Below are positions 7,080-24,966 of a stretch of 64,000 bases of DNA, piece by piece. The position numbers and the translations under genes are program-made. Under the pieces are notes generated by a model that searched no databases, was not told the origin of the DNA, and worked only from the letters and a program-made list of their open reading frames with translations. The stretch covers positions 62,001 to 126,000 of the forward strand of contig NZ_CYSR01000007.1 of the NCBI RefSeq assembly GCF_001458395.1, written 5' to 3'. Within the stretch, counting starts at the first letter, position 1, and the number at the start of each line of letters is the position of its first letter. Source of the stretch: Leisingera aquaemixtae. GTDB lineage: Bacteria > Pseudomonadota > Alphaproteobacteria > Rhodobacterales > Rhodobacteraceae.

Positions 7080-8207
7080 TCAGGACGGGTCTTCCAGCGC
7101 CGCAAAGAAGGCTGCAATGGCATCTTCCAGCTTGTGCCGGTCGATTTCCGAGAAGTCGCGCTCCATTGCCATTTCGATCTTGCCGTCGCGCGCCTGACAG
7201 CGGACTGTCCCCGCGGGGACAGTGCAGCGCAGGGTGGTCTTGGCGACGCCGGCGCGCGGCGCAGCGGGGGTGCGGGGGGCGTTCTTGCGCTTGCCCTCGG
7301 CAAAGCTGCGCAGCACCTCCAGCTCTGCCTCTTCGTTCTGCGGCTTCACCCGCGCCAGCGCGTCGCGCAGCACCTGGGCGTTCATCGCATCGGCCTCCAG
7401 GCGTTTCTTCAGGTCCAGCCCCAGCGCCCGCGGGATGGCCTCCGGGTGTTTCAGTGCATCCCCCACGGCCTTCAGCACCTGGGCAAAATGGCGGATGTAG
7501 ATCCGCTTCTGCCGGCCCGCAGAGGCGTAAAGGTCGTTCACCGCATCCTCGATGGTCTCCGCGCCGGTGCCGGTGTCCTCGGCATAGCGCAGCGCCAGCT
7601 GTGCCATTTCGGCAAAGGAGATGTCGCGGCGCACCAGGTTCTCATCCACCATCCGCCGGTAAAGGCTCTGCAGACTGTCGCCCTTGGCCACCAAACCCGC
7701 GGGGATATGGCTGTAGATGTCGTCGCCCGTTTCACTGAGCAGTTCCAGATAGGCCCGCATCCGGCGGTAGCCCTGGATCAGCTCATAGGTGCCGTCTTCG
7801 TTTTCCTCGACCCGGATCGGGTTCGACAGGCCAATGGATTTGATGGAGGCCTTCAGCTCATCCAGCTCCGGATCGCGCCCTTCCTTGCGGTCGCGGACCA
7901 GCTTCTGCATGCCGATCCGGCCAATCGGAATCCGGTCGACCACCAGGCCCAGCTTCTTCAGCCGCACGAACTCATGCGCCAGCCGGTCGTTCTCAGCGCG
8001 GATCTTCATTTCCGCCTCGGCACGGGTGCGCAACGCATCGGCGTTCTCGGAGATCGCGGTGGCCATCGGCCCGCGGCGCGATTCAGACGGTTTGCGCATC
8101 CGCTGGTCCGGCTTCTGGACGGCGGTCTCCGCGGGGACGGATTTTGGTTCAGAGGGGGTGTTCGGTTCAGTCGGGAAGTCGATGTCGAAGACTCTGCGTT
8201 TGCTCAT
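7080..8207 (-). CDS. parB: plasmid partition protein ParB
   Basis: A 375-aa centromere-binding protein. After a basic N-terminus it has a ParB/sulfiredoxin-type domain at about residues 85-175 (VDRIPIGRIGMQKLVRD, DELKASIKSIGLSNPIRVEENEDGTYELIQGYRRMRAY, where GYRR is the conserved CTP/DNA-linked motif). A helical HTH region with the family's FAEMAQLALRYAEDTG stretch follows. Its start overlaps the parA stop by 4 bases (ATGA), so parA-parB is an operon. The gene contains a perfect palindrome copy (7206-7221) and a degenerate copy (8124-8139), which may let ParB load on its own gene. It partitions the replicon with ParA. Confidence 0.9.
   Translation of the reverse strand: MSKRRVFDIDFPTEPNTPSEPKSVPAETAVQKPDQRMRKPSESRRGPMATAISENADALRTRAEAEMKIRAENDRLAHEFVRLKKLGLVVDRIPIGRIGMQKLVRDRKEGRDPELDELKASIKSIGLSNPIRVEENEDGTYELIQGYRRMRAYLELLSETGDDIYSHIPAGLVAKGDSLQSLYRRMVDENLVRRDISFAEMAQLALRYAEDTGTGAETIEDAVNDLYASAGRQKRIYIRHFAQVLKAVGDALKHPEAIPRALGLDLKKRLEADAMNAQVLRDALARVKPQNEEAELEVLRSFAEGKRKNAPRTPAAPRAGVAKTTLRCTVPAGTVRCQARDGKIEMAMERDFSEIDRHKLEDAIAAFFAALEDPS
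7206..7221. promoter_or_regulatory. parS-like palindrome inside parB
   Basis: A perfect TGTCCCCGCGGGGACA copy in the 3' part of parB, in frame as V-P-A-G-T (context RCTVPAGTVRCQ). A degenerate copy at 8124-8139 in the 5' part reads S-V-P-A-E-T in the same frame. Confidence 0.7.
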
Positions 8208-9508
8208 GCCTCATCCTCCAGATTTTCCCAGGCTTCCAGCGCGTAGGCCTTGAATTCATCGTAGGCCTGATCAAACGACGCCCGCGCACGGCGCCAGGTT
8301 TCGCGTGTCATTTCCCGGTAATCGATTTCGTAGATGGAACTCAGGAAGCGGCCCGATTGCTCGACTGCGCGGGTCATCTCGATCGGGTGCTCGGTCATTC
8401 TGCCCTCGAACACCTTCATAAATGCCGAACGCATCGCACGGTGCAAATCGTTACCGCTTTCGTAACGGGTGAGGAGGAAGCGGACGTCCTGGAAAACCTT
8501 CGGCAGGGCAAATGTCCCCGCGGGGACAACGCCGTTAAACGCCGACAGATCCTCCAGCGCCTCGGACAGCTGGCCGATGAAGGAGGTGGTTGAGTCATAC
8601 TCCCAGTAGCCGGGGCCGGAGGGGATATAGAGCATGTCGGCAGCAAAGACCGCGTTCATCGACTGGTAGCCGATGGCAGGCGGGCAGTCGAAGATCATCA
8701 GGTCGTAGTCTTCCGCGGGCAGCTGGTCGAGGTAGCGGGAGACCGCGGCGAAGAACGACCATTCCGGGTTCAGGTGGCGGTACTGGGCGGAGGCGAATTC
8801 CACAAAGGCCGCATTGGCGCAGGAGGGGATGATGTCGATGGTCGGCCAGCTGGTCGGCTTGACGAAATCGCTGACCCGCAGGTCCTGCAGCCCCATGCCG
8901 GTGATCGCGTCGGGCAGCTGGCGCTGGGGCAGGGCGGTGCCGGACTCGGCGCCCTGCGACACCGCGTTCATCCGTTCCGTCTCGCGCACCAGGTCGCGGG
9001 CCATGATGCCCCAGACGGTGTAATCCTCAGTGACGTCGCTGAGGCCCATGGAGTGCGACAGGGTGGCCTGCGGGTCGAAGTCGACGCACAGCACCCGGTA
9101 GCCGTCCAGCGCTGCGGCATGGGCGAAGTGCAGGGCGACGGTGGATTTGCCGGCGCCGCCCTTGAAGTTGGAGATCGCCACCCGCAGCGCCCGTTTGCCC
9201 GCGGGGCGCTTGGGCAGCAGGGATTTGCGGTTGATCTTGATGCGGCGGCGCAGCTCATTGATCTCCTCCAGCGAATACCAGCGCTGGCGGCCGTCCTCCT
9301 CGACATGGCCCTGGGGCAGCGAGGGGTCGGTGGCGAGCCGTCCCCGCAGGGTCGACTGGTTGACGCGGAAGATCAGCTCCGCCACCTCCCAGGAGGAGAA
9401 CCGGCGCAGGGTCTTTTCCATTTCGGGGGAGAAGGTCTGCTGGCGGATCCAGCTTTGCATCTTGAGAGATTGGGCCTGCATCTTGGACAGGTCTTCGTGC
9501 GTAAACAT
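8204..9508 (-). CDS. parA: plasmid partition ATPase ParA
   Basis: A 434-aa ParA of the large type with an N-terminal DNA-binding region. Residues about 1-105 include a MerR/HTH-like part (WEVAELIFRVNQSTLRGRLA). The deviant Walker A motif is at about residues 113-125 (NFKGGAGKSTVAL) and is followed by RVLCVDFDPQATLS. The Walker B region is YDLMIFDCPPAIGYQSM. AAGGAG precedes the ATG at good distance. It is the first gene of the parAB operon and transcribes away from the replicase. The N-terminal HTH suggests it represses its own promoter, as known for this ParA type. A parS-like copy lies in the coding region at 8513. Confidence 0.92.
   Translation of the reverse strand: MFTHEDLSKMQAQSLKMQSWIRQQTFSPEMEKTLRRFSSWEVAELIFRVNQSTLRGRLATDPSLPQGHVEEDGRQRWYSLEEINELRRRIKINRKSLLPKRPAGKRALRVAISNFKGGAGKSTVALHFAHAAALDGYRVLCVDFDPQATLSHSMGLSDVTEDYTVWGIMARDLVRETERMNAVSQGAESGTALPQRQLPDAITGMGLQDLRVSDFVKPTSWPTIDIIPSCANAAFVEFASAQYRHLNPEWSFFAAVSRYLDQLPAEDYDLMIFDCPPAIGYQSMNAVFAADMLYIPSGPGYWEYDSTTSFIGQLSEALEDLSAFNGVVPAGTFALPKVFQDVRFLLTRYESGNDLHRAMRSAFMKVFEGRMTEHPIEMTRAVEQSGRFLSSIYEIDYREMTRETWRRARASFDQAYDEFKAYALEAWENLEDEA
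8513..8528. promoter_or_regulatory. parS-like palindrome inside parA
   Basis: A perfect TGTCCCCGCGGGGACA copy, in frame as V-P-A-G-T (context FNGVVPAGTFAL). It sits late in the parA gene. Confidence 0.7.
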
Positions 9509-10060: not shown

Positions 10061-10744
10061 ATGCTTGCCAAACGGCCTGCGGGGCGCAACGCCTCTGCGC
10101 TGAAATATGACATCCTCACGGCGATGGGGGCTTATGCGCTTGGCCAGGGCAAGGGGGCGCAGAAGCTGGTTCTGCGTTTCATGACACTGATGACCGCGCG
10201 CTACAACTGGCAGCGCGATGAGCTGGCCGTCGGGCAGCGGGAGATTGCCCGGCTGTGGGATGTCGATGAGCGCACGGTGAAGCGCGAGATGGCCAAGCTG
10301 CGGGGCTGGGGCTGGCTGGTGGTGAAACGCCAGGGCGCGCGCGGGCGGGTGACGGAATACGGGATTGATCTGGAGCGGCTGCTGGCCGACACCGAAGAGC
10401 GCTGGGGGGCGGTCGGACCGGACTTTGAGCACCGGATGCAAGGGGCGGACGAGCCGGCGCCGAATGTGGTGCCGCTGCGCCCCGGCGCGGTGCCGCCTGC
10501 GCCGGATGTGTCGGACGGCAGCGAATGGAGCCTGGCCAAGGCAGTGCTGCATGCGGAGGATCCGGCGAATTATGCCTCCTGGGTGCAGGGACTGGAGCGC
10601 GCGGGCCGGGCAGGCGGCAGGCTGGTGCTGAAGGCGCCGAGCCGGTTCCATGCGAATTACGTGATGTCGCATCTGATGCCGCGCTTGCTGGCCGCCTGCC
10701 GCGATGTGGATGGCGAAGTCTCCGCCATTGTTGTGGAGGCGTGA
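10061..10744 (+). CDS. DnaA-like plasmid replication initiator
   Basis: A 227-aa protein with two visible parts. Residues about 20-110 form a winged-helix-like DNA-binding region (QREIARLWDVDERTVKREMAKLRGWGWLVVKRQGARGRVTEYGIDLERL). Residues about 155-227 resemble DnaA domain I (WSLAKAVLHAEDPANYASWVQGLERA ... LVLKAPSRFHANYVMSHLMPRLLAAC). No AAA+ ATPase domain is present. This matches the DnaA-like replicase type described for Rhodobacterales plasmids that sits next to parAB. Purine-rich GGGGGCAGCA precedes the ATG. It probably binds the repeats just upstream and recruits the host replication machinery through its DnaA-I-like part. Confidence 0.75.
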   Translation: MLAKRPAGRNASALKYDILTAMGAYALGQGKGAQKLVLRFMTLMTARYNWQRDELAVGQREIARLWDVDERTVKREMAKLRGWGWLVVKRQGARGRVTEYGIDLERLLADTEERWGAVGPDFEHRMQGADEPAPNVVPLRPGAVPPAPDVSDGSEWSLAKAVLHAEDPANYASWVQGLERAGRAGGRLVLKAPSRFHANYVMSHLMPRLLAACRDVDGEVSAIVVEA

Positions 10745-13596: not shown

Positions 13597-13899
13597 TTAC
13601 TCCGAGAGGAACGCCATCAGGTCCTGACGGGCGTGCAGGATGCGGAGGATCTCGGGGCGGCCCTGCTCCAGCCGGTAGACCACCAGATGCGCGCCTGAGG
13701 GGTGGATGCGGACCGGCGGGGTGAACTCAGCCCGTTCGCGGGCCATTTCGGGGAAGTCCGCCAGCAGGTCGAACAGGGCAAACAGGCTGTCGGCATAGGC
13801 GTCGGCCTGCGCCGCGCCCCAGGTTTCCATGCCATAGCGCCAGATCGCGGCAAGGTCGTCGCGTGCGGCGGGGTGGATCCGCCAGCGCGGCTCAGCCAT
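13597..13899 (-). CDS. parE: ParE-family toxin of a type II toxin-antitoxin system
   Basis: A 100-aa RelE/ParE-fold protein (RIHPAARDDLAAIWRYGMETWG at the start; IHPSGAHLVVYRLEQGRPEILRILHARQDLMAFL at the end). Its start overlaps the antitoxin stop by 8 bases, the standard arrangement with antitoxin first. ParE toxins poison DNA gyrase. On this replicon the pair probably stabilises inheritance near the partition module. Confidence 0.88.
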   Translation of the reverse strand: MAEPRWRIHPAARDDLAAIWRYGMETWGAAQADAYADSLFALFDLLADFPEMARERAEFTPPVRIHPSGAHLVVYRLEQGRPEILRILHARQDLMAFLSE

Positions 13900-14286: not shown

Positions 14287-17200
14287 TCAGGCGGAGGCGG
14301 CCTTCAGGCCCTTTTCCTCCAGCGGCTGGATGGAGCCGTCTTCGCTGACGGTCACCTGTTCGCCGTGGCTCAGGCTGTCGAGACCCTTGCAGGCGACCAG
14401 CATCAGGACGTCCTTTTCGCGGGCGACGATGGCCATATGGCTGAGCCAGCCGCCGACCTCGGACAGCACCGCGCCGGAGCGCTGGACGTATGGCAGCCAG
14501 GCCGGGTTGACCATCCGGCAGACCAGGATGTCGCCGTCCTGGAAGTCTGCAAAGGCCGCGGGGTCGATGCAGCTGTCGTCTTCCATCCAGAACACCCGGG
14601 CGGTGGCGCTGCCGCTGCCCGCCACGCAGGTGCCGCCCATGGTGCCGTCACCGGCCTGGGCCTGGGCACCGAGCGACAAAAGCTCGCAGTCGCGCAGGGT
14701 GAGGGAGACCGCGGTGGGAGCGGATTTCTTGCGCAGCTCCTCCCTGGCGGCGCGCGCCTCTGCCAGTTCGCGCAGCTGTGCGGGGTCGGTCCAGTTGCCG
14801 GACAGCACCTCGTCGAAGGTGAGGCTGAACACCAGATCCCCCAGCCCGCTGATCTGCCCCAGCGCCAAGAGGGCGCGGCGCAGTTCGGCGACGACGCGCA
14901 GGGCCTCGTGCTTGGCCTGCTCCTTCAGGTCCTGATAGGCGATGGCGATGCCGATGGTATCGTCCAGCTCATCCGGCAGGTTGGCCGGAACCGGGACGGA
15001 CCCGATCGGCTCCACCGTGTTGCTGAGCAGCGATTCCAGCAGCGCCGGCGCCTCTCTGTAGCGGGGCGAGGACAGCTCATAGTCGAAGATCGAGCGGTGC
15101 CCCATCAGCTGCGTGGCGCGGGCCTGGGCATCCCTGCCGGTGCAGGAGGCCAGCAGGCTGGAAGGCGCGTTGGGCAGTTCCGCGTGCATCAGGTGCGCAC
15201 GCAGGGCCGGATCGCCAGCCGCTGCCGTGCCGGCCTCGCCCATGGTGAAGCCTGCCAGGATGTTGATCTTTTCGGCCTCCAAATAGACCTCGCGGATGAA
15301 CATGTCCTTGAGGGTGGAGATCGCCTCCAAGAGCTTGTCCTGGGGCAGGGCGGCGTAATCCACCGCCTGCCAGATCGCCAGCTTGTTCTTCAGCTCCGGC
15401 ATCACCTTGCCGCGGAAGCGGGTGATCATCGGATGCGCCTGCTTGCGCAGCTGCTTGGCCTTGGCGGCGGTGAGCTTGAGCGTCATGCCCTGTTTCAGCG
15501 CCACATCGACGTAGGTCTTGCCGAACAGGTTGACCAGATGGCCGTCGCGCCCCTCAGGCAGGCCATAGGGCACGCCCAGTTCGCGGCAGGCGAGGTCAAC
15601 GCTGCCGCCCGGCGCCCACAGCTCGCTCATCAGCGAGAAGGAGAGCGGGGTGGGGCGGGGCAGGACCTCTGACATCTCGTCCTGTTCCAGGATGGTCTGG
15701 TCCGGGTCGGCAGCGGCATAGCGGTCCAGCAGATCGCGCCATTCGGCCAGGCGGGTCTGTTCCTGCTCGGTGCCCAAGGACAGCGTGGTGATGTCGCGGC
15801 TTTGGACGATCTGGAACTGGCCGTTTGCATAGGCCCATTCCACGTCCTGCGGGCAGCCGAAGGTCTCCTCGATCTGACGCCCAAGGGCCAGCAGCGGTGC
15901 CATGTCCAGGGTCTGGTCCTGATCGGCATCCGCCGGCAGGCCGGTGTAGCGGCCAAAGCGCAGGCTGGTGGGGGTGACGCGGCCGGACACCAGATCCTCG
16001 CCGCAGCCCTCGACCCATTCGATCATGCACATGCCGGGGGCCATCGGGTCCTGGGTGAAAAGGACGCCGGCGTATTCGGCCTGCACCATTTCCTGCACCA
16101 CGATGTTGCCCTGATCGGTGCTGTCGCCCTCGCCGGAGTAGCTGGCGGCACGCTCGGACGAGAAGCTGGTCACCACTTCGTCCAGTGCGGTGCGCATGGT
16201 GTCAGCGGTCACGTCGAGCACGGATTCAAAGACGCCTGCGAAGCTTTGATCGTGGCCGTCCTCGTTGCTGGCGGAGGAGCGCACGGCGACCGGCTTGCCG
16301 CCTGCAAGGGCAAAGACCCTGGCGGCAAAGGCGTCTTTTTTCGCGTCCGTCATTTCGCGGTAGTCGTGGATTGCATCGGAGCGCACGATCACGCCGCCGG
16401 GCACCGGCAGGCCGGCGTTGCGCAGGATCGACAGGCGCAGGGCCTTGTTGCCGGCATGCTCCAGCTCTTCGGTGTAGCCCATCGGGATCACGCCGCGCGG
16501 CAGCTTGGCAAGGCGGCGCTTGTGGGCGCGCAGCGACAGCGCTTCAGCCAGCGTGCGGTGCATGCCGGTGACATAGGCGCGCTGCACCAGCAGGAGCGTC
16601 AGGCTGAAGCAGAGATAGGCATTGGCGGCCGCGGTCAGGCTGAACACCATGGCGAACAGCGCAGGCATGCCCAGAACCATCCACAGCAGTTTCTGGCGCG
16701 GGGTCTTGGCCACGGCCCACAGCAGGTAGACGGCGGCGAGCGCACAGAACAGCACCGGCAGGATGAACAGCGGATCGGGCGCACCAAGGTCAGCCATCCA
16801 CAGGAACGGGGTCTGCAGCGAGGCGCTGGCCTCTTGCGCGGCGGAGACGCCCAGCATCATCACCGGCAGGAACAGCAGCGCGGTGAGGTTCTTCATCGGG
16901 GTCAGGCCCTTGTCCTTATAGAACGCCTGCACCGCGCGCGCCTTGCGCACCGGGTCATGGGCCAATTTCGCCTTCAGCGCCTTCATCTCATCCGCGGTCT
17001 CGTTGGTGATGATCTGATCGCGTTCGGATTTCAGCGCCACCGGCAGCACCAGGATGCGGGTCACGATCGACAACGCCAAAAGGCCCAGCAGGATATGGCT
17101 GCGCTCATGCACCCACAGCAGCGCGGCGGCCAGCGCCGAGATCGCCTTGTCCCAGAGGCCGGTCTGCTGGTCGGCCAGCCACGCCTGCACATGCGGCTTC

Positions 17201-18354
17201 GGCTTGGGTGCGACAAAATATTCCCACGGCAGGGTATAGCGGCCGCGGAAGTCGATGCCCTGCTGCGACAGCTCCAGCCCCAGCACCTGGCTCATGAAGC
17301 AGCTGCGGCGGTCATAGCAGGCGGCGATGGTGGGTTTGCCGGGGTCCAGTTCCGCGATGCGGTCCATCAGGTCGGCGGTCGTCATCTTGCGGATCGGGAT
17401 GTTGACGGCACCCGGCAGGTGGCCGGATTCAAAGTCGCCGGGATAGCGGGTGTCGACGATCTGCAGATCCTCGGTGGTCAGCAGGTTGGTGAAATCATCA
17501 GTGCTGAGCAGCACGTCCTTGCCCGGGTAGTCCGGGATTGCCCGCAGGTCGGAGAGGGTTTTCACGTCCTTGTCGGAGAACGCGCGCCCCTCGACGATCC
17601 ATTTCTCGATGCCGCCGGCGATGAAGCTGCAGTCGATGCCCATCGCCGCCAGCTTGGCGCAGGTTTCCGAGGAGCGGTTGCCGTTGTGGCAGAACAGAAC
17701 GACCTTCTGGCCCGGCTTGACCGGCTGGCTCTGGACGAAGTCCGGGAAGCGGATGTGGGTGGCGCCGGGCAGGGTGCCCATGGCGTTCTCGCCGGTTTCG
17801 CGGATGTCGTAGAACAGGGTGGAGCCGTCTTCCAGCGCCGCCGCGGCATCGGCGGTGCTCATCGCCAGCGGATGGTCCTCCTGCTTGGTGAAGCTGGTCT
17901 CCTTGAGCGCGGCATCCTTGATGGTGGTGCCGTCAAACTGCGCCGGCCGGGTCAGGGTGGCCTGCAGTCTTGCCAGTTCTTGCTGCGCATGCGAGGAATA
18001 CTGCCAATAGTTACCAGCCGCCAGCGCAATGGCCGCGAGAACGAGCACAGAAATCAGCTTGACCGGGTACCGCCGCGGAGATCCGCCCGGTTTGGGGGTA
18101 AAACCAAGTTTTGCCGCAACGACAGCGCCGAGGCCGGAAATCATGGCAATTCCAACCGCCAGCACCTGCGACAGCGAAGACACCGAGCCGATCACCAGCT
18201 CCGGCGAAGGGATGGCCAGGGCCGCGACCGGGACTGCTGAAAAAAGTGCCGTCAGCACAGTGATTTGCACTGAGCGGTGGCGGGACCCTGAGGTTCTTTG
18301 GGGCAAGGTGGTATTCTTCACGGCGTTTCCTGTTGAGCCAGTTCTAGCGGGCAT
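14287..18354 (-). CDS. rhodanese-rhodanese-YidC-like-dikinase/phosphotransferase fusion protein
   Basis: A 1355-aa membrane protein with an unusual domain order. Hydrophobic segments lie at about residues 28-48, 57-82 and 98-114. Rhodanese 1 (about 165-255) has its active Cys in LFCHNGNRSS (about 222). Rhodanese 2 (about 280-385) has a Cys in AACYDRRSC (about 346). A YidC/Oxa1-like membrane region spans about 400-600 (TRILVLPVALKSERDQ, RKARAVQAFYKDKGLTPMKNLTALLFLPVMM). A PPDK/PEP-synthase-type ATP-grasp domain spans about 620-860 (GNKALRLSILRNAGLPVPGG; VAVRSSASNEDG). A helical middle part follows, then a C-terminal swivelling domain whose phospho-His is in GGWLSHMAIVARE (about 1306). There is no PEP-binding barrel, so the last half resembles rifampin phosphotransferase architecture rather than PEP synthase. 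The substrate is unknown. Confidence 0.85.
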   Translation of the reverse strand: MPARTGSTGNAVKNTTLPQRTSGSRHRSVQITVLTALFSAVPVAALAIPSPELVIGSVSSLSQVLAVGIAMISGLGAVVAAKLGFTPKPGGSPRRYPVKLISVLVLAAIALAAGNYWQYSSHAQQELARLQATLTRPAQFDGTTIKDAALKETSFTKQEDHPLAMSTADAAAALEDGSTLFYDIRETGENAMGTLPGATHIRFPDFVQSQPVKPGQKVVLFCHNGNRSSETCAKLAAMGIDCSFIAGGIEKWIVEGRAFSDKDVKTLSDLRAIPDYPGKDVLLSTDDFTNLLTTEDLQIVDTRYPGDFESGHLPGAVNIPIRKMTTADLMDRIAELDPGKPTIAACYDRRSCFMSQVLGLELSQQGIDFRGRYTLPWEYFVAPKPKPHVQAWLADQQTGLWDKAISALAAALLWVHERSHILLGLLALSIVTRILVLPVALKSERDQIITNETADEMKALKAKLAHDPVRKARAVQAFYKDKGLTPMKNLTALLFLPVMMLGVSAAQEASASLQTPFLWMADLGAPDPLFILPVLFCALAAVYLLWAVAKTPRQKLLWMVLGMPALFAMVFSLTAAANAYLCFSLTLLLVQRAYVTGMHRTLAEALSLRAHKRRLAKLPRGVIPMGYTEELEHAGNKALRLSILRNAGLPVPGGVIVRSDAIHDYREMTDAKKDAFAARVFALAGGKPVAVRSSASNEDGHDQSFAGVFESVLDVTADTMRTALDEVVTSFSSERAASYSGEGDSTDQGNIVVQEMVQAEYAGVLFTQDPMAPGMCMIEWVEGCGEDLVSGRVTPTSLRFGRYTGLPADADQDQTLDMAPLLALGRQIEETFGCPQDVEWAYANGQFQIVQSRDITTLSLGTEQEQTRLAEWRDLLDRYAAADPDQTILEQDEMSEVLPRPTPLSFSLMSELWAPGGSVDLACRELGVPYGLPEGRDGHLVNLFGKTYVDVALKQGMTLKLTAAKAKQLRKQAHPMITRFRGKVMPELKNKLAIWQAVDYAALPQDKLLEAISTLKDMFIREVYLEAEKINILAGFTMGEAGTAAAGDPALRAHLMHAELPNAPSSLLASCTGRDAQARATQLMGHRSIFDYELSSPRYREAPALLESLLSNTVEPIGSVPVPANLPDELDDTIGIAIAYQDLKEQAKHEALRVVAELRRALLALGQISGLGDLVFSLTFDEVLSGNWTDPAQLRELAEARAAREELRKKSAPTAVSLTLRDCELLSLGAQAQAGDGTMGGTCVAGSGSATARVFWMEDDSCIDPAAFADFQDGDILVCRMVNPAWLPYVQRSGAVLSEVGGWLSHMAIVAREKDVLMLVACKGLDSLSHGEQVTVSEDGSIQPLEEKGLKAASA

Positions 18355-18554
18355 TCTGAATTGTGGCGAATTTGCCTAAAAGATTACGAAAATCTTACTG
18401 AACCGTTAATATAGAGGGCGGAGAATAAAAGAACCGCAAAATTTTTCCAAGAATTGGAGGCGCGTTAACATTGTATTCTTAACCATGTGGCATGTAACGA
18501 GGGTGGAAAGGCCCGCCCGCTGTGCCAGCCGATGTCAGTCAGGAGGCTAAAGCC
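18355..18554. promoter_or_regulatory. divergent promoter region with AT-rich core
   Basis: About 200 bases between two divergent genes. The stretch from about 18360 to 18485 is clearly AT-rich relative to the window (AAAAGATTACGAAAATCTTAC contains the inverted repeat AAGATT/AATCTT around 18378-18393). No gene is seen. It probably contains both promoters, but I cannot assign exact -35/-10 boxes. Confidence 0.4.
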
Positions 18555-19451
18555 GTGAAGTTGTTTGAGTGGACTATTGGTATCATTAAGCTTTTCCTGA
18601 GGCCGCTGCGGGCGGCGGCACCGGCCGCTGTCCTGTCCGCGTGCCTTGCAGCGTTTGTTCCGGCGCCAGGCCAGGCCGGGATTGAGCTGGTTTTTGGTAC
18701 CTATGCGGCGGATAAACCTACTGCAACGGTTAAAAAGTACCAGCCGTTTCTCTCCTTCCTGGCCGGACGCATGAGCGAAGAGCTGGGCGAGCCGGTGTCG
18801 ATCCGCCTGAAGGTCGCCAAGGAGTACGGCGAGGGGATCCGCCAGCTGGCCAGCGGCGAGGTGGATTTCGCCCGCTTCGGCCCGGCGTCTTACGTCCATG
18901 TGATGAAGGAAAACCCGGGTATCCGGATTGTCGCGATGGAATCCAAGAACGGCCGCAAGCGGTTCAAGGGGGTGATCGTGGTGCACAAGGACAGCAGCGT
19001 GCAGGTGATGGAGGATCTGGCCGGTCTCAGCTTTGCCTTCGGGGATGAACTGTCGACCATCGGCCGCTATCTGGCGCAGGAATACCTCCTGAACGCCGGT
19101 ATCAGCAGCGCCGATCTCTATGAGTTTGCCTATCTCGGGCGCCATGACCTGGTCGGGGAGGCGGTAGGCGCGGGCCGGTATTCCGCAGGCGCGCTGAAAG
19201 AGAGCACTTATAAGAAGCTGGTCGCCAAGGGCGTGCCGATCCGGGTGCTGGCCTCGTTTGACAATGTCACCAAGCCCTGGCTGGCGTCGTCGCAGATGCC
19301 GGAAAACGTGCTGGAGGCCATGCGCAAGGTCATGTTGTCCTCGGAGAACGAGGAGATCGTGCGCCGGATTTCGAAGAACGGGTTCCTGCTGGGGGCCGAT
19401 CAGGATTATGACATTATCCGCCGGGCAATGGAGCGCAGCCTGGCATTTTAA
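18555..19451 (+). CDS. PhnD-like phosphate/phosphonate-family periplasmic binding protein
   Basis: A 298-aa periplasmic solute-binding protein of the PhnD/SsuA2 type. An N-terminal signal segment (AAAPAAVLSACLAAFVPAPGQAG) is followed by ELVFGTYAADKPTATVKKYQPFLSFLAGRMSEELGEPVSIRLKVAKEYGEGIRQLASGEVDFARFGPASYV, the classic PhnD opening. AGGAGG at 18541-18546, 8 bases before a GTG at 18555, decides the start. No ABC permease or ATPase follows. The next gene, 18 bases on, is a hybrid sensor kinase, so this protein more likely serves as the kinase's periplasmic sensor than as a transporter component. Confidence 0.8.
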   Translation: MKLFEWTIGIIKLFLRPLRAAAPAAVLSACLAAFVPAPGQAGIELVFGTYAADKPTATVKKYQPFLSFLAGRMSEELGEPVSIRLKVAKEYGEGIRQLASGEVDFARFGPASYVHVMKENPGIRIVAMESKNGRKRFKGVIVVHKDSSVQVMEDLAGLSFAFGDELSTIGRYLAQEYLLNAGISSADLYEFAYLGRHDLVGEAVGAGRYSAGALKESTYKKLVAKGVPIRVLASFDNVTKPWLASSQMPENVLEAMRKVMLSSENEEIVRRISKNGFLLGADQDYDIIRRAMERSLAF

Positions 19452-19469: not shown

Positions 19470-21755
19470 ATGAAACGAACGGGCATCCTCTTTCAGATCG
19501 TACTGTCGCTGCTGCTGGCCGCCTCCGCGGTCGGCTTTGCGGTTGGCAATCTGGCGCAGCGCCAGGAGGTGCAGCGGCTGGAGCAGCAGCTGACCGAGCA
19601 GGCGGACCTGACGGTCTCGCTGCTGAGCGGGCTGATGCTGGAAGCGATCATCGTGGAGGATGTGCCGGTGCTGGAAACCGGCCTGTACGAGGCGGTGGCG
19701 CGCAAGCCGCAGATTGTGTCGATCCAGATCCGCAACCCGTCGGGCAAGCTGCTGGCCTCGGCACAGGCGCCCGAAGCGCTGCAGGACGACGGCCATGTGA
19801 TCTACGAACGGCCGATCGAGCTGGAGGGGGCCTCCTTCGGCACCATGCTGGTGAAATGGTCGACGCGCGACGGCCAGGCGCTGGTGCGCGAGAAGGTGCG
19901 CCAGATCATCATCTGGACGGTGGTGCCGGTGCTGGCGCTGTCGCTGCTGGTTTTGCTGCTGGTGCATGTGCTGGCGCTGCGCCCGCTGCAGATGATTCAC
20001 AAGCGGATGTCGGATGCGATTGCCGGCCTGCGCAGCCCGCTGCGGCCGCTGCCCTGGTACGCCTCGCGGGAGTTCCGGGCGCTGGACTTCTCGGTCGGGG
20101 TGCTGGAGGAAACCTTTGCCGAACGCGATGAGCGCGAGTTTGCGATGGAGCAGGCCCGCGAGGCCGCGGATATCGCCAACCGCGCCAAGTCGGAATTCCT
20201 CGCCAACATGAGCCACGAGATCCGCACCCCGATGAACGGGGTGATTGGCATGGCGGAGCTGTTGCAGGAAACCCGGCTGGACGACGACCAGCGGATGTAT
20301 GCGGAGACCATCGGCAAATCCGGCTCGGCGCTGCTGACGATCATCAACGACATCCTCAACTTCTCCAAGATCGAGGCCGGCAAGCTGGAGCTCAGCTGCG
20401 CCCCGTTCAATCTGCAGACGGCGGTCGAGGATGTGGTGACCCTGCTGTCGCCCAAGGCGGCGGAAAAGGGGGTGGAGGTCACCATGCGCTATGACCCCGC
20501 CCTGCCGGAACTGTTCGAGGGCGATGCCGGGCGGATCCGCCAGGTGATCACCAATATCGCAGGCAATGCCGTCAAGTTCACCAGCCAGGGCTATGTCTTT
20601 ATCGAAGTAACCGGCCGCGCGCAGCCCGGCGGCGGCCTGCTGGTCAGGCTGCAGGTGACCGATACCGGGATCGGCATCGCGCAGGACCGGATCGGCCGGA
20701 TCTTCCGTGCCTTTGAGCAGGCCGACAATGCGGCCACCCGCAATTTCGAAGGCACCGGCCTGGGGCTGGCGATCTCGGCGCGGCTGCTGGAGCTGATGGG
20801 CGGCTCGGTGGAGGTGCAGTCGCAGACGGGCAAAGGCTCTGTGTTCACGATCCAGATCCCGCTGCGGGCCTCTGACAAGACCGTGCCGGGACAGGGCAGC
20901 GGCGGGCGCAGCTTTGCCGGGCTCAGCGCGCTGCTGGTCGATGACCTGGAACTGAACCGGGTGATCCTGTCGGAACGGCTCAGCACTTGGGGCGTGGCCT
21001 GCACGCAGGCGGCTTCGGCGCATGAGGGGCTGGAAATCCTGTCGGATGCGCAGCTGGACGGGCGGCGGTTCGATGTTATTCTGCTGGATTACCAGATGCC
21101 TGCGATGGACGGGCATGAGCTGGCGGCCAGGATCCGGGCGATGCCCGGCTTTGAAACCGTGCCGCTGATCATCCTGTCCTCGGTCGACAATGCCCTGTGC
21201 CGGGCCGATTGCGATGCCCTTGGCGCCTGCGAGTTTGCGCTGAAGCCGGTGCGGGCGGTGCAACTGCGCCAGGTGATGAGCCGGCTGCTGAGCAGGCCGG
21301 TGCAGAAACCGGCGGACGCCGCCGGGGCGCCGGCCGGGCTGCAGCCGGAGGGGCGGCTGCTGAAAGTGCTGCTGGCAGAGGACAACCGCACCAACCAGAT
21401 GGTGGTGACCAAGATGCTGAAGGACGCGCCGCTGGTGATCAGCATCGCCGGCAACGGCGCCGAGGCGGTTGCCCGCTTCCGGGCCGAACGTCCCGATATC
21501 GTGCTGATGGACATGATGATGCCGGAAATGGACGGGATCGAAGCCACCGCCGAAATGCGCCGGATCGAGGCCGAGACCGGCCGCGGCAAATGCCCGATCG
21601 TGGCGCTCACCGCCAATGCGCTGCAGACCCACCGGGAAAAATGCCTGCAGGCGGGGATGGATGACTTCCTGAGCAAGCCGATCAACAAGAAGGCGCTGAC
21701 CGAGGCGATCGGCAAATGGGCGGGCAGCCCGGATCTGCAGAAAACCGGCAGCTGA
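19470..21755 (+). CDS. hybrid sensor histidine kinase with two receiver domains
   Basis: A 761-aa kinase. Membrane segments lie at about residues 7-27 and 147-170 around a roughly 120-residue periplasmic loop. A linker of about 70 residues precedes HisKA with phospho-His249 ([15 protein letters not shown]). The HATPase has an N box ([10 protein letters not shown]), G1 (DTGIGIAQD) and G2 (GTGLGLAIS). Receiver 1 has its Asp in [13 protein letters not shown], and receiver 2 in [13 protein letters not shown]. It lacks an Hpt domain, so phosphotransfer must involve another protein. The upstream PhnD-like protein probably docks on the periplasmic loop, as in TorT-TorS-type signalling. No dedicated output gene is adjacent. 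Confidence 0.9.
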
Positions 21756-21807: not shown

Positions 21808-22614
21808 TCAGCCGCGGCGGCGGTGCAGCAGCAGCCCGGTCAGGCTGGAGGCGGCAAACAGCGCCGCGGCCAGGCAGACAATGCTGGGTCCGGCCGGGGT
21901 ATCCAGCGCGAAGGCCAGCTGCAAACCGCCGGTGGCCGACAGCATTCCCAGCAGCGCGGCAATGGCGGCCATCCGCTCCGGCGTGGCGGCAAAGGGGCGG
22001 GCGGCGGCAGCCGGGATCAGCAGCATCGCCGCGATCAGCAGCACGCCCACCACCTTGATCGCCACGGCAACCACCAGCGCCAGCGCAATGGTCAGCACCA
22101 TCTGCTCGCGCCGCGGATCAATGCCGGCGGCATGGGCCAGGTCCGGGTTCAGCGTTGCGGTCAGCAAGGCAGACCAGCGCCACCACAACAGCGCCAGCAC
22201 CAGCGCCTCGCCGCCCCAGATCACCGCCAGATCGGCGCGGCCCACGGCGAGGATGTCGCCGAACAGATAGGCCATCAGGTCGATCCGCACCCCCTGCAGG
22301 AAAGAAACGGCAACCAGGCCGAAGGCGAGCGAGGAATGCGCCAGCACCCCCAGGAGCGTGTCCATCGCATAGCCGCGCCCGGCCAGCGCCGACACGGTGG
22401 TGGCCATCGCCAGCGCGGTGGCCAGAACGCCGGCAAAGACCGAGACGTCAAAGCTGAGCGCCAGCGCCACCCCCAGGATCGAGGCATGGGCGGTGGCATC
22501 GCCGAAATAGGCCATCCGGCGCCAGACCACGAAACAGCCCAGGGGCGCGGCGGCCAGCGCCACGCCGATGCCGGCCAGCGCGGCGCGGATCAGGAAATCG
22601 TCGAGAAAGGTCAT
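21808..22614 (-). CDS. znuB: zinc ABC transporter permease ZnuB
   Basis: A 268-aa multi-pass membrane protein of the ABC-3 metal permease family (YFGDATAHASILGVALALSFDVSVFAGVLAT; IDLMAYLFGDILAV; VGVLLIAAMLLIPAAAARPFA). Its start overlaps the znuC stop by 4 bases (ATGA). With ZnuC and the divergent ZnuA it imports Zn(II) across the inner membrane. Confidence 0.92.
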   Translation of the reverse strand: MTFLDDFLIRAALAGIGVALAAAPLGCFVVWRRMAYFGDATAHASILGVALALSFDVSVFAGVLATALAMATTVSALAGRGYAMDTLLGVLAHSSLAFGLVAVSFLQGVRIDLMAYLFGDILAVGRADLAVIWGGEALVLALLWWRWSALLTATLNPDLAHAAGIDPRREQMVLTIALALVVAVAIKVVGVLLIAAMLLIPAAAARPFAATPERMAAIAALLGMLSATGGLQLAFALDTPAGPSIVCLAAALFAASSLTGLLLHRRRG

Positions 22615-23372
22615 TCTGCGGCCTCGTGAGGGTGGTCGTGCCCGTTCCCGTGGGCGCAGTCGTGGTCGTGGCTGTGGTTGTGCTCATGCCGGTAGAGCGC
22701 CAGCGCGCCTTGGGTGCCGGTGCCGAACAGCGCCCGGTATTCCGGGGCGGAGGCGACATGCTCCGGCGCGCCTTCGCAGCAGACATGGCCGTTCAGGCAG
22801 ATCACCCGGTCGGAGGCCGCCATCACCACATGCAGCTCGTGGCTGACCATCAGCACCGCGCAACCCAGCTCCTGGCGGACCTTCTCGATGCGCTGGTAAA
22901 AGGCGGCGGAGCCGGGCTGGTCGAGGCCCTGGGTGGCTTCATCCAGGATCAGCAGTTGCGGGTTGCACAGAAGCGCGCGGGCCAGCAGCACCCGCTGGAA
23001 CTGGCCGCCGGAGAGGCCCGACATCTGCCGCGCCGCCAGATCGCCGGCCCCGGCCTGCTCCAGTGCCTCGGCGGCGCGGGCGTCGGACACCCGCTGCGGC
23101 AGGCTGAGGAAGCGGCGCACCGTCAGCGGCAGGGTGGGGTCGATGTGCAGTTTCTGCGGCACATAGCCGATGCGCAGCCCCGGCGCCCGGGTGACGGTCC
23201 CGCGCGCAGGTTTTTGCGCACCGATCACGCTGCGCAGCAGGGTGGACTTGCCGGAACCATTGGGGCCGACCACGGTGACGATTTCCCCCGGCTCAATGGT
23301 CAGGCTGACGCCGGACAGGACCGTATTGCCGCCGTGCCGGACCGACAGGTTGTTCAGGGCGATCAGGCTCAT
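22611..23372 (-). CDS. znuC: zinc ABC transporter ATP-binding protein ZnuC
   Basis: A 253-aa ATPase. Walker A is GPNGSGKST, the signature LSGGQFQRVLLARAL and Walker B LLILDEATQGLD. The C-terminus carries a His/Asp tail (HEHNHSHDHDCAHGNGHDH), which is not needed for the ATPase fold and may bind zinc as a buffer or sensor. I place the start at 23372 (MSLIALNNLSVRHGG), overlapping the zur stop by 4 bases; the ATG at 23402 lies inside zur and adds ten unlike residues. Confidence 0.92.
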   Translation of the reverse strand: MSLIALNNLSVRHGGNTVLSGVSLTIEPGEIVTVVGPNGSGKSTLLRSVIGAQKPARGTVTRAPGLRIGYVPQKLHIDPTLPLTVRRFLSLPQRVSDARAAEALEQAGAGDLAARQMSGLSGGQFQRVLLARALLCNPQLLILDEATQGLDQPGSAAFYQRIEKVRQELGCAVLMVSHELHVVMAASDRVICLNGHVCCEGAPEHVASAPEYRALFGTGTQGALALYRHEHNHSHDHDCAHGNGHDHPHEAAE

Positions 23373-23851
23373 GCGGCGGCGGCTTTCTGGCATTTGGGGC
23401 ATAGGCCCTCGGCCTCGATCACCGCGCGTTCGATCACGAAACCGGCGTCGCGGGCGGCCTGGCCCAGCTGGCCCTGGGTGGGTTCACGCTGTGCCTCCGC
23501 CACGGCGTCGCAGGCGCGGCAGATCAGGAAAACCGGAGCGTGGGTCTCGCCCGGATGGGAGCAGGCGATGAAGGCGTTGAGCCGCTCGATCTTGTGGGCG
23601 AAACCGTTTTTCACCAGGAAATCCAAGGCGCGGTAGGCCACCGGCGGCTGCGAGCCGAGGCCCTCTTCGCGCAGGCGGTCGAGAATTTCATAGGCCCCCA
23701 GCGCGCGGTGCTCTTGCAGCAGAATTTCCAGCACCCGGCGGCGCACGGGGGTGAATTGCAGCCCCTCTGCCCGGCAGTGGGCGTCCACTGCCGCGATGCA
23801 GTCCTGAATGCAGCTGCTGTGGTCGTGCGGCTCAAAACCGATGGAGTCCAT
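23369..23851 (-). CDS. zur: zinc uptake regulator Zur (Fur family)
   Basis: A 160-aa Fur-family repressor. The N-terminal winged helix is visible (LQFTPVRRRVLEILLQEHRALGAYEILDRLREEG). The metal-binding and dimerisation part has CSHPGETHAPVFLICRACDAV and a C-terminal CPKC; the two CxxC pairs are the structural zinc site. It is the first gene of zur-znuC-znuB, divergent from znuA, so it should repress both directions when zinc is plentiful. Confidence 0.9.
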   Translation of the reverse strand: MDSIGFEPHDHSSCIQDCIAAVDAHCRAEGLQFTPVRRRVLEILLQEHRALGAYEILDRLREEGLGSQPPVAYRALDFLVKNGFAHKIERLNAFIACSHPGETHAPVFLICRACDAVAEAQREPTQGQLGQAARDAGFVIERAVIEAEGLCPKCQKAAAA

Positions 23852-23885
23852 TTGGCGGGTCCTTTGAGGGGCGGGTGATTTGTCT

Positions 23886-23940
23886 CTTGATATGTTATGT
23901 TATGACGTTTATCAACTGCGTGATGTTATAAGATTACATG
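23886..23940. promoter_or_regulatory. candidate Zur operator between zur and znuA
   Basis: The short divergent region is AT-rich and carries repeated GTTAT motifs: GATATGTTATGTTATGAC (23889-23906) and TGATGTTATAAGATTACA (23921-23938). Such GTTAT-containing imperfect palindromes fit known alphaproteobacterial Zur boxes in style. Placement just before both genes supports a shared operator. The exact boundaries are uncertain. Confidence 0.45.
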
Positions 23941-24966
23941 GGGCTTGATATGCGGAACTCTAGCGTGTGGAAAAGCGGTGCGGCGGCGCTGGCCGTGCTG
24001 GCCGGGGCAGGCGGGGCCTGGGCCGGGGTGCCGAAGGTGGCGGCGGATATCACCCCTGTGCACGGGCTGGTGGCGCGGGTGATGCAGGGGCTGGGCGCGC
24101 CGGCCCTGGTGGTGCCGCCGGGGGCGTCGCCGCATGGCTATGCGATGCGTCCGTCCGAGGCGCAGGCGCTGGACCAGGCGGATCTGGTGTTCTGGATGGG
24201 CGAGGCGCTGACCCCCTGGCTGGAAGGCCCGCTGGAGGAGCTGGCGGGCGATGCGCGCCGGGTGGAGCTGCTGGCGGCGGAAGGCACCGAAGTGCTGGCG
24301 TTCCGCGAAGGGGCCCGGTTTGAGGCGCATGGGCATGACGAGGATCATGGCGATCATGAGGATCACGAGGATCACGCAGGCCATGAGGATCATGCAGACC
24401 ATGACAGCCGCGAGGACGATGGCGATCACGCGGATGCGCACGGGCACAGCCATGCGGGCGCCGATCCGCACGCCTGGCTGCTGCCGGCCAATGCACAGGC
24501 TTGGCTGGACGTGATCGCAGCAGAGCTGGCAGAGCACGACCCGGACAATGCCGCAGCTTACAAAGCCAATGCAGAGGCCGGAAAGCAAGAGATTGCGGAC
24601 GCTGCCGCCAGTATCTCGGCGTCGCTGGAACCGTTCCGGGCCAAGCAGTTCATCGTCTTCCACGACGCCTATCAGTATTTCGAGCGCGGTTTCGGCCTGA
24701 ACGCGGCTGGTGCGATTTCACTGGGGGATGCGGTCAAGCCGAGCCCGGCGCGGATTGCCGAAGTGCGCGGCGTTGTGGCGGATCTCGAAGTGTCCTGCGT
24801 GTTCTCGGAGCCGCAGTTCAATCCGGGGGTGGTTGCCACCGTTCTGGACGGCACCGGAGCAGGCACCGCGCTGCTGGATCCGCTGGGCGCCAAACTGGAG
24901 CCGGGGCCGCAGTTTTACCCCGCGCTTCTGCGGGATATCGGCAGCGCGATTGCCGGTTGCGAATGA
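23938..24966 (+). CDS. znuA: zinc ABC transporter periplasmic binding protein ZnuA
   Basis: A 342-aa cluster A-I binding protein with a signal peptide ending GGAWA. Zinc ligands are expected at the His in VHGLVARV (near residue 45), the His in ASPHGYAMRP, the His in FHDAYQYFE and a C-terminal Asp. Between them is a long His/Asp/Glu-rich loop (about residues 136-178, with repeated HEDHEDH), typical of ZnuA. A second possible start, the ATG at 23950 with GGGG upstream, gives a 338-aa form with the same signal peptide. Confidence 0.92.
   Translation: MGLDMRNSSVWKSGAAALAVLAGAGGAWAGVPKVAADITPVHGLVARVMQGLGAPALVVPPGASPHGYAMRPSEAQALDQADLVFWMGEALTPWLEGPLEELAGDARRVELLAAEGTEVLAFREGARFEAHGHDEDHGDHEDHEDHAGHEDHADHDSREDDGDHADAHGHSHAGADPHAWLLPANAQAWLDVIAAELAEHDPDNAAAYKANAEAGKQEIADAAASISASLEPFRAKQFIVFHDAYQYFERGFGLNAAGAISLGDAVKPSPARIAEVRGVVADLEVSCVFSEPQFNPGVVATVLDGTGAGTALLDPLGAKLEPGPQFYPALLRDIGSAIAGCE

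Follow-up and report, generated by a model that had tools for sequence, protein, structure and literature searches.

A rhodanese-YidC-dikinase fusion protein and its sensor genes in Leisingera aquaemixtae

The fusion gene and its domains

We analysed a 64,000-nucleotide stretch of the Leisingera aquaemixtae genome (the window; contig NZ_CYSR01000007.1, positions 62,001 to 126,000), which encodes a 1355-residue fusion of two rhodanese domains, a YidC/Oxa1-like membrane core and a phosphotransferase half resembling rifampin phosphotransferase (RPH). Genes for a periplasmic binding protein and a hybrid histidine kinase lie beside it on the opposite strand (Table 1). The domain order proposed in a first-pass annotation, rhodanese-rhodanese-YidC-ATP-grasp-helical-His, is borne out by named Pfam domains above their curated cut-offs: Rhodanese (E 3.2e-22, in two stretches), 60KD_IMP (residues 423-595, E 3.9e-15, 56.7 bits against a cut-off of 35), PPDK_N (E 4.1e-35) and PEP-utilizers (E 2.3e-14). 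The two rhodanese regions match one another (hhalign probability 93.7%), the boundaries of the second having been set by hand.

Table 1. Features of the fusion gene and the adjoining sensor genes, in window coordinates
Feature	Position	Strand	Basis
Fusion gene, 1355 aa	14287..18354	-	Open frame of this place and length; Pfam; orthologs
Signal-peptide-like hydrophobic stretch, aa 30-48, ahead of invariant AIPSPEL	18211..18267	-	Hydropathy, 13 aligned sequences
Two N-terminal membrane helices, aa 53-83 and 96-114, positive loop between	18013..18198	-	Averaged hydropathy and charge
Rhodanese 1, aa 160-262, Cys222 within CHNGNRSSE	17569..17877	-	Pfam; Cys222 in 13/13 rows
Rhodanese 2, aa 275-385, Cys346 and Cys352 within CYDRRSC (CX5C)	17200..17532	-	Pfam (two stretches); hhalign to rhodanese 1; both Cys in 13/13 rows
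YidC/Oxa1 core, aa 423-595, groove Arg433	16570..17088	-	Pfam; hydropathy; Arg433 in 13/13 rows; Foldseek
ATP-grasp (PPDK_N), aa 630-860, Lys637, Arg692, Glu839	15775..16467	-	Pfam; alignments
Central helical domain, aa 870-1240, where RPH has its rifampin-binding domain; K-[ED]-x-x-K at 1144-1148	14635..15747	-	Structure model; Foldseek; alignments
His swivel (PEP-utilizers), aa 1271-1336, His1306 within GGWLSHMAIVARE	14347..14544	-	Pfam; 13/13 rows
Conserved 15-base element TTAAC-N6-GTAA, divergent intergenic region	18395..18409	-	Sole match in window, 0.02 expected
Periplasmic binding protein (Phosphonate-bd)	18522..19451	+	Pfam; alignment; nearest solved proteins PtxB-type, then ArrX/AioX
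Hybrid histidine kinase: HisKA, HATPase_c, two receiver domains	19470..21755	+	Pfam; alignment

The active-site residues, which had appeared intact in the single sequence, proved to be invariant. In an alignment of 13 fusions picked for spread, Cys222, Cys232, Cys242, Cys346, Cys352, Arg433, Lys637, Arg692, Cys1279 and His1306 are present in every row. Hydropathy and charge averaged over the same sequences give a signal-peptide-like stretch and two helices, followed by a 297-residue soluble stretch with the rhodaneses; hydrophobic stretches of the YidC core read as five helices, with the C-terminal half after the last. Mean Lys/Arg content is 11.1 in the core loop 440-489 and 0.5 in 509-530, the positive loops lying on the expected cytoplasmic side. 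The rhodaneses are thus predicted to be periplasmic and the dikinase cytoplasmic. In E. coli YidC, the periplasmic P1 domain occupies the position where the fusion has its rhodaneses. Foldseek matched the N-terminal half to a tandem rhodanese (6mxv, E 5.4e-6) and to YidC (3wo7, E 2.8e-3), the latter from a model with a mean predicted local distance difference test (pLDDT) score of 51.7.

An RPH-type phosphotransferase half

The biochemical class of the C-terminal half, judged by sequence comparison, is well supported as an RPH-type small-molecule dikinase. The earlier view that its layout is that of RPH rather than phosphoenolpyruvate (PEP) synthase holds: PEP_utilizers_C, the PEP/pyruvate-binding barrel, gave no Pfam match at E values up to 1, and RPH entries rank first in the sequence and structure comparison listings, with RPH 5hv3 matched by Foldseek over 932 alignment columns (E 3.3e-18). 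PEP synthase, the label given in databases, is ruled out by the missing barrel. RPH proper is likewise ruled out, since the fusion reaches 128.7 bits against the 999-bit cut-off of the curated RPH model. Among the best 25 of 52 NCBIfam families, the PEP synthase-like and RPH-like matches are partial and far below cut-off.

In RPH, the first phosphotransfer involves Lys22, Arg117 and Thr136, His825 is the phosphate carrier, and the second transfer uses Arg666-Glu667 and Lys670, as described in PMC4844700. When aligned to RPH 5hv2, the Arg117 stretch has a significant counterpart in the fusion (Arg692) and the Lys22 stretch a weak match only (Lys637), while the Thr136 position is Ser or Thr in the fusions. 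His1306 aligns with the RPH swivel His and sits C-terminal, beyond the central domain. A K-[ED]-x-x-K motif is found in 12/12 rows, including the split version described below, and we infer that it may be the equivalent of the RPH block-9 motif. A family of small-molecule dikinases whose substrates have diverged was proposed in the RPH paper, and we file the C-terminal half in it as a variant; the same account describes the RPH-like superfamily as widespread, with substrates beyond rifampin largely open (PMC4844700). Such dikinases can be split, as in the two-component HpeHI (PMC12167813).

Distribution and selection

The survey of frequency and neighbours that the first-pass annotation had called for was carried out on plasmid records and genomes. 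Eighty-one plasmid records contain a single place spanning at least 80% of the fusion query, the nearest being from Leisingera (99.4% identity), Phaeobacter (~83%), Parasedimentitalea marina (73%) and Tritonibacter mobilis (57%). In the genome collection the fusion, a conserved protein of marine roseobacters, matched 16 loci, two of them (L014 and L020) cut by contig ends. Full-length matches at E <= 1e-100 occur in 14/394 genomes of the family, sampled at one per species, and the most distant shares 41% identity in the genome search and 38% in the 13-row alignment. Beyond the family, neither 385 class genomes nor 398 phylum genomes yielded a full-length fusion at E <= 1e-60, nor did 324 phylum genomes searched with a profile of the C-terminal half at E <= 1e-50; these draws overlap. 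Across seven domains and five comparisons, the ratio of nonsynonymous to synonymous substitution (dN/dS) was 0.048-0.237 in 33 of 35 cases, the other two, both N-terminal, being undefined because synonymous sites were saturated.

Phaeobacter inhibens DSM 17395, a laboratory strain that can be cultured, encodes the fusion cassette on its 262-kb plasmid; other genera have the cassette too, in one case on a 4.6-Mb contig. In the paper passages covered on the P. inhibens plasmid, we found no phenotype for the fusion or sensor genes. That plasmid is described as carrying tropodithietic acid (TDA) genes as well as the cassette; a part in TDA biosynthesis was rejected on account of the occurrences outside Phaeobacter.

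A linked sensor pair

The binding protein and hybrid kinase stand beside the fusion in 17 of the 19 loci examined (the window included, most near-identical Leisingera loci left out). Of the two remaining loci, one has a contig end inside the kinase gene and the other, L054, is a contig with neither sensor gene. Binding protein and fusion are divergent except in L053, L055 and L056, where kinase and fusion converge. At E <= 1e-30 the binding protein was detected in 15/394 family genomes, namely 14/14 of those with the fusion and 1/380 of the others (G089); the two draws share handles and counts and are therefore taken as one set of genomes. The fusion, binding protein and kinase show correlated pairwise distances (r 0.88-0.90, 17 loci), which may only mirror host phylogeny. 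This co-conserved pair had gone unmentioned in the first-pass annotation.

The nearest relatives of the binding protein are PtxB-type phosphite/phosphonate proteins, followed by HtxB, ArrX and AioX. The Arg of RFGPASY and the Arg of RHD are invariant in 11/11 rows, whereas the three best-matching solved proteins have YFGP and another residue ahead of HD. Since these invariant arginines differ from the solved relatives, the comparison suggests that the ligand is a different, perhaps more negative, anion. The arrangement recalls the arsenic-oxyanion sensing systems AioX/ArxX/ArrX-S-R, in which a PhnD-type binding protein also adjoins a histidine kinase. However, AioX needs Cys106, and an alignment of 11 binding proteins shows no Cys column in the mature region, so arsenite sensing by this protein is ruled out; the cassette kinase also differs in being a hybrid. 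Its receiver Asp columns are conserved in 11 rows, and neither an Hpt nor a DNA-binding domain is among its domain matches. No separate response-regulator gene is annotated beside it in loci L021, L022 and L024, the search across the 19 loci having covered homologs of window genes.

A split pair of YidC-like and dikinase genes

Two of the 78 genomes searched from one order, placed in a different class of the same phylum, carry a gene of some 500 residues that encodes a C-terminal YidC-like domain and overlaps the start of a dikinase gene by 4 bases. The dikinase gene is broken by contig ends in one genome; the complete version (690 residues) aligns with the C-terminal half of the fusion over 645 columns (E 1.5e-48). 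We identify the upstream gene as YidC-like from its Pfam scores of 37.3 and 29.2 bits (above and below the cut-off of 35), and from a weak hhalign match to the whole N-terminal half of the fusion (probability ~40%, E 3e-4). No rhodanese was recognised in this gene, whose beginning is cut by a contig end in both genomes. From the pair, the YidC-dikinase association appears to exist without fusion, perhaps also without rhodaneses. Cys1279, beside the swivel region and invariant in the fusions, is Thr in the split dikinase L043. Next to one split dikinase (L069, 1173-6370) lie genes that we read from their sequences as MarR-like, outer-membrane-factor and resistance-nodulation-division (RND) efflux genes.

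The absence of a recognisable rhodanese from the split version, together with the predicted placing of rhodaneses and dikinase on opposite membrane faces, suggests that the rhodaneses were added to a core of YidC and dikinase. The coupling of sulfane sulfur to membrane insertion and phosphorylation put forward in the first-pass annotation is a conjecture.

A possible mechanism and its rivals

Building on the observed domains, conserved residues and gene linkage, we tentatively favour, at somewhat less than an even chance, an RPH-type small-molecule dikinase that is anchored in the membrane, is offered an amphiphilic substrate by its YidC groove and works under periplasmic control. Given the computed topology, the cytoplasmic ATP-grasp domain would charge swivel His1306, and the swivel would carry the phosphate to the central domain and then onto a hydroxyl of the putative acceptor, for which an amphiphile or a lipid-linked molecule is the likeliest candidate. 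The YidC core would fix the dikinase to the membrane, and its groove could present or move the acceptor. The two periplasmic rhodaneses, the second with its CX5C pair, may handle or sense sulfane sulfur. Together with the binding protein and hybrid kinase they might signal the presence of an anion in the periplasm and regulate the enzyme itself or its expression, a direction of control that is, like the acceptor and the role of the groove, conjectural.

Several observations weigh against this proposal. The stricter YidC model TIGR03592 scores the fusion at 56.4 bits, below its cut-off of 84.3. The K-[ED]-x-x-K motif lies between two RPH-matched regions, the first not significant, and is itself unaligned to RPH; it has Lys where the RPH motif (Arg-Glu-x-x-Lys) has Arg. 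Confidence in the AlphaFold models is low (mean pLDDT 51.7 for the model matched to 3wo7 and 62.9 for the other), and Foldseek TM-scores are low for both halves (<=0.26 for model length). In G089 (L059, 745-3947) the binding protein and hybrid kinase occur with no fusion detected, and in G019 the sensor pair is on another contig than the fusion. No neighbouring gene points to a substrate.

A wider version of the proposal, which we regard as rather doubtful, makes the insertase fold a substrate-presenting part: a transmembrane dikinase would act on a lipid or amphiphile bound in the groove, phosphorylating it at the cytoplasmic face under gating by sulfane sulfur and by the anion sensed in the periplasm, and the YidC-dikinase pair would be the ancestral core.

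It is also possible, though unlikely, that the fusion is a dedicated insertase and maturation factor, its YidC part inserting one membrane protein whose cysteines the periplasmic rhodaneses modify and which the dikinase phosphorylates on the cytoplasmic side. The retained groove Arg and helix pattern are consistent with insertion, and the host genome encodes a separate 600-residue YidC-like protein (named by reading its sequence), which leaves the fusion free to specialise. The C-terminal tail of YidC contacts the ribosome, however, and in the fusion the dikinase stands in its place. A further parallel is the E. coli membrane rhodanese YibN, which is said to interact with YidC but whose rhodanese is described as cytoplasmic (PMC12282094), whereas those of the fusion are predicted to be periplasmic. 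No co-conserved client gene was seen among the homologs of window genes that were searched.

We consider it quite improbable that the hybrid kinase has its missing partner in the fusion, as parts of one signalling device in which the swivel His and a receiver domain exchange phosphate. The co-occurrence and correlated divergence of the genes would fit, as would the conserved receiver Asp columns in a kinase with no Hpt or output domain among its matches. Yet the swivel fold is no Hpt fold, we know of no transfer from a swivel of the PEP synthase or enzyme I type to a receiver domain, and the Hpt that a hybrid kinase uses is often encoded at another place. The correlation may follow host phylogeny alone, and G089 has the kinase with no fusion detected.

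Poorer still are the prospects of sulfur activation, in which the dikinase would activate an acceptor and a rhodanese persulfide displace the phosphate, much as adenylation is combined with a rhodanese in ThiI- and MOCS3-type enzymes. Activation domains are known to be paired with rhodaneses, both rhodanese Cys are invariant, and MoeB-rhodanese models match rhodanese 1. The two chemistries would nevertheless lie on opposite membrane faces in the predicted topology, and the split pair has no recognisable rhodanese. A Cdc25-type phosphatase role for the rhodaneses is not favoured, since Cys-loop length separates such phosphatases from sulfurtransferases and the Cys loops here, CHNGNR and CYDRRS, have the length seen in sulfurtransferases.

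A chance join of separate genes, or one by sequencing error, which the first-pass annotation had named as a possible refutation, is virtually excluded because full-length orthologs exist in many independent assemblies (Leisingera, Phaeobacter, Parasedimentitalea and Tritonibacter) and the measured domains are under purifying selection.

Relation to known systems

All parts of the fusion belong to known families; the combination of such a dikinase half with an insertase core and sensor genes of its own matches no described kind known to us. No description of the fusion was found among the open-licence papers listed, in keeping with the first-pass remark that the domain order was not familiar from any described system. 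With the RPH/small-molecule dikinase superfamily, HpeHI included, it shares the ATP-grasp with its conserved residues, the central helical domain, the C-terminal swivel His and the lack of a pyruvate barrel among its matches, but it differs in its membrane core and rhodaneses, in its distance from the RPH model and in the Lys of its candidate block-9 motif. With YidC/Oxa1 insertases it shares the 60KD_IMP core, the helix pattern, the positive cytoplasmic loop and the groove Arg, while differing in its rhodaneses at the P1 position, the enzyme in place of a C-terminal tail and the separate YidC-like protein of its host. Like tandem-domain rhodaneses it has two rhodanese folds with a catalytic Cys, and YibN is also linked to YidC (PMC12282094); unlike these, its rhodaneses are covalently joined to YidC, predicted to be periplasmic and carry CX5C in the second domain.

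YidC-type insertases are familiar as machines for protein insertion. The conserved covalent link between YidC and a phosphotransferase, together with the gene pair in another class, suggests that the insertase fold can serve an enzyme. A member of the dikinase superfamily with sensor genes of its own also offers a handle on the inducer.

Other features of the region

The element TTAAC-N6-GTAA, separated from the fusion start by 40 bases, lies upstream of the fusion in 10/17 loci. It was spotted by eye in an alignment, so the chance figure of 0.02 understates the search. With one mismatch, it resembles a CtrA box (TTAA-N7-TTAA).

Zinc-uptake-like ATP-binding cassette (znu-like) genes and a Fur-type regulator (21808-24966) adjoin the cassette in 11/19 loci, about 8 kb per side being covered in the more distant ones; as they are present in these loci only, zinc uptake was set aside as incidental or secondary to the system. 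Between the fusion and an RpiR regulator lies a ParE-type toxin gene (13597-13899, minus strand, PF05016), which was not matched at E <= 1e-15 in the other 18 of the 19 loci and next to which a ParD antitoxin is annotated in the matching R2C4 record. Elsewhere, the window encodes a DnaA N-domain protein by Pfam (10061-10744, plus strand) and an AAA-family ATPase by annotation of the matching record, which we read as ParA (8204-9508, minus strand); these are likely plasmid replication and partition genes.

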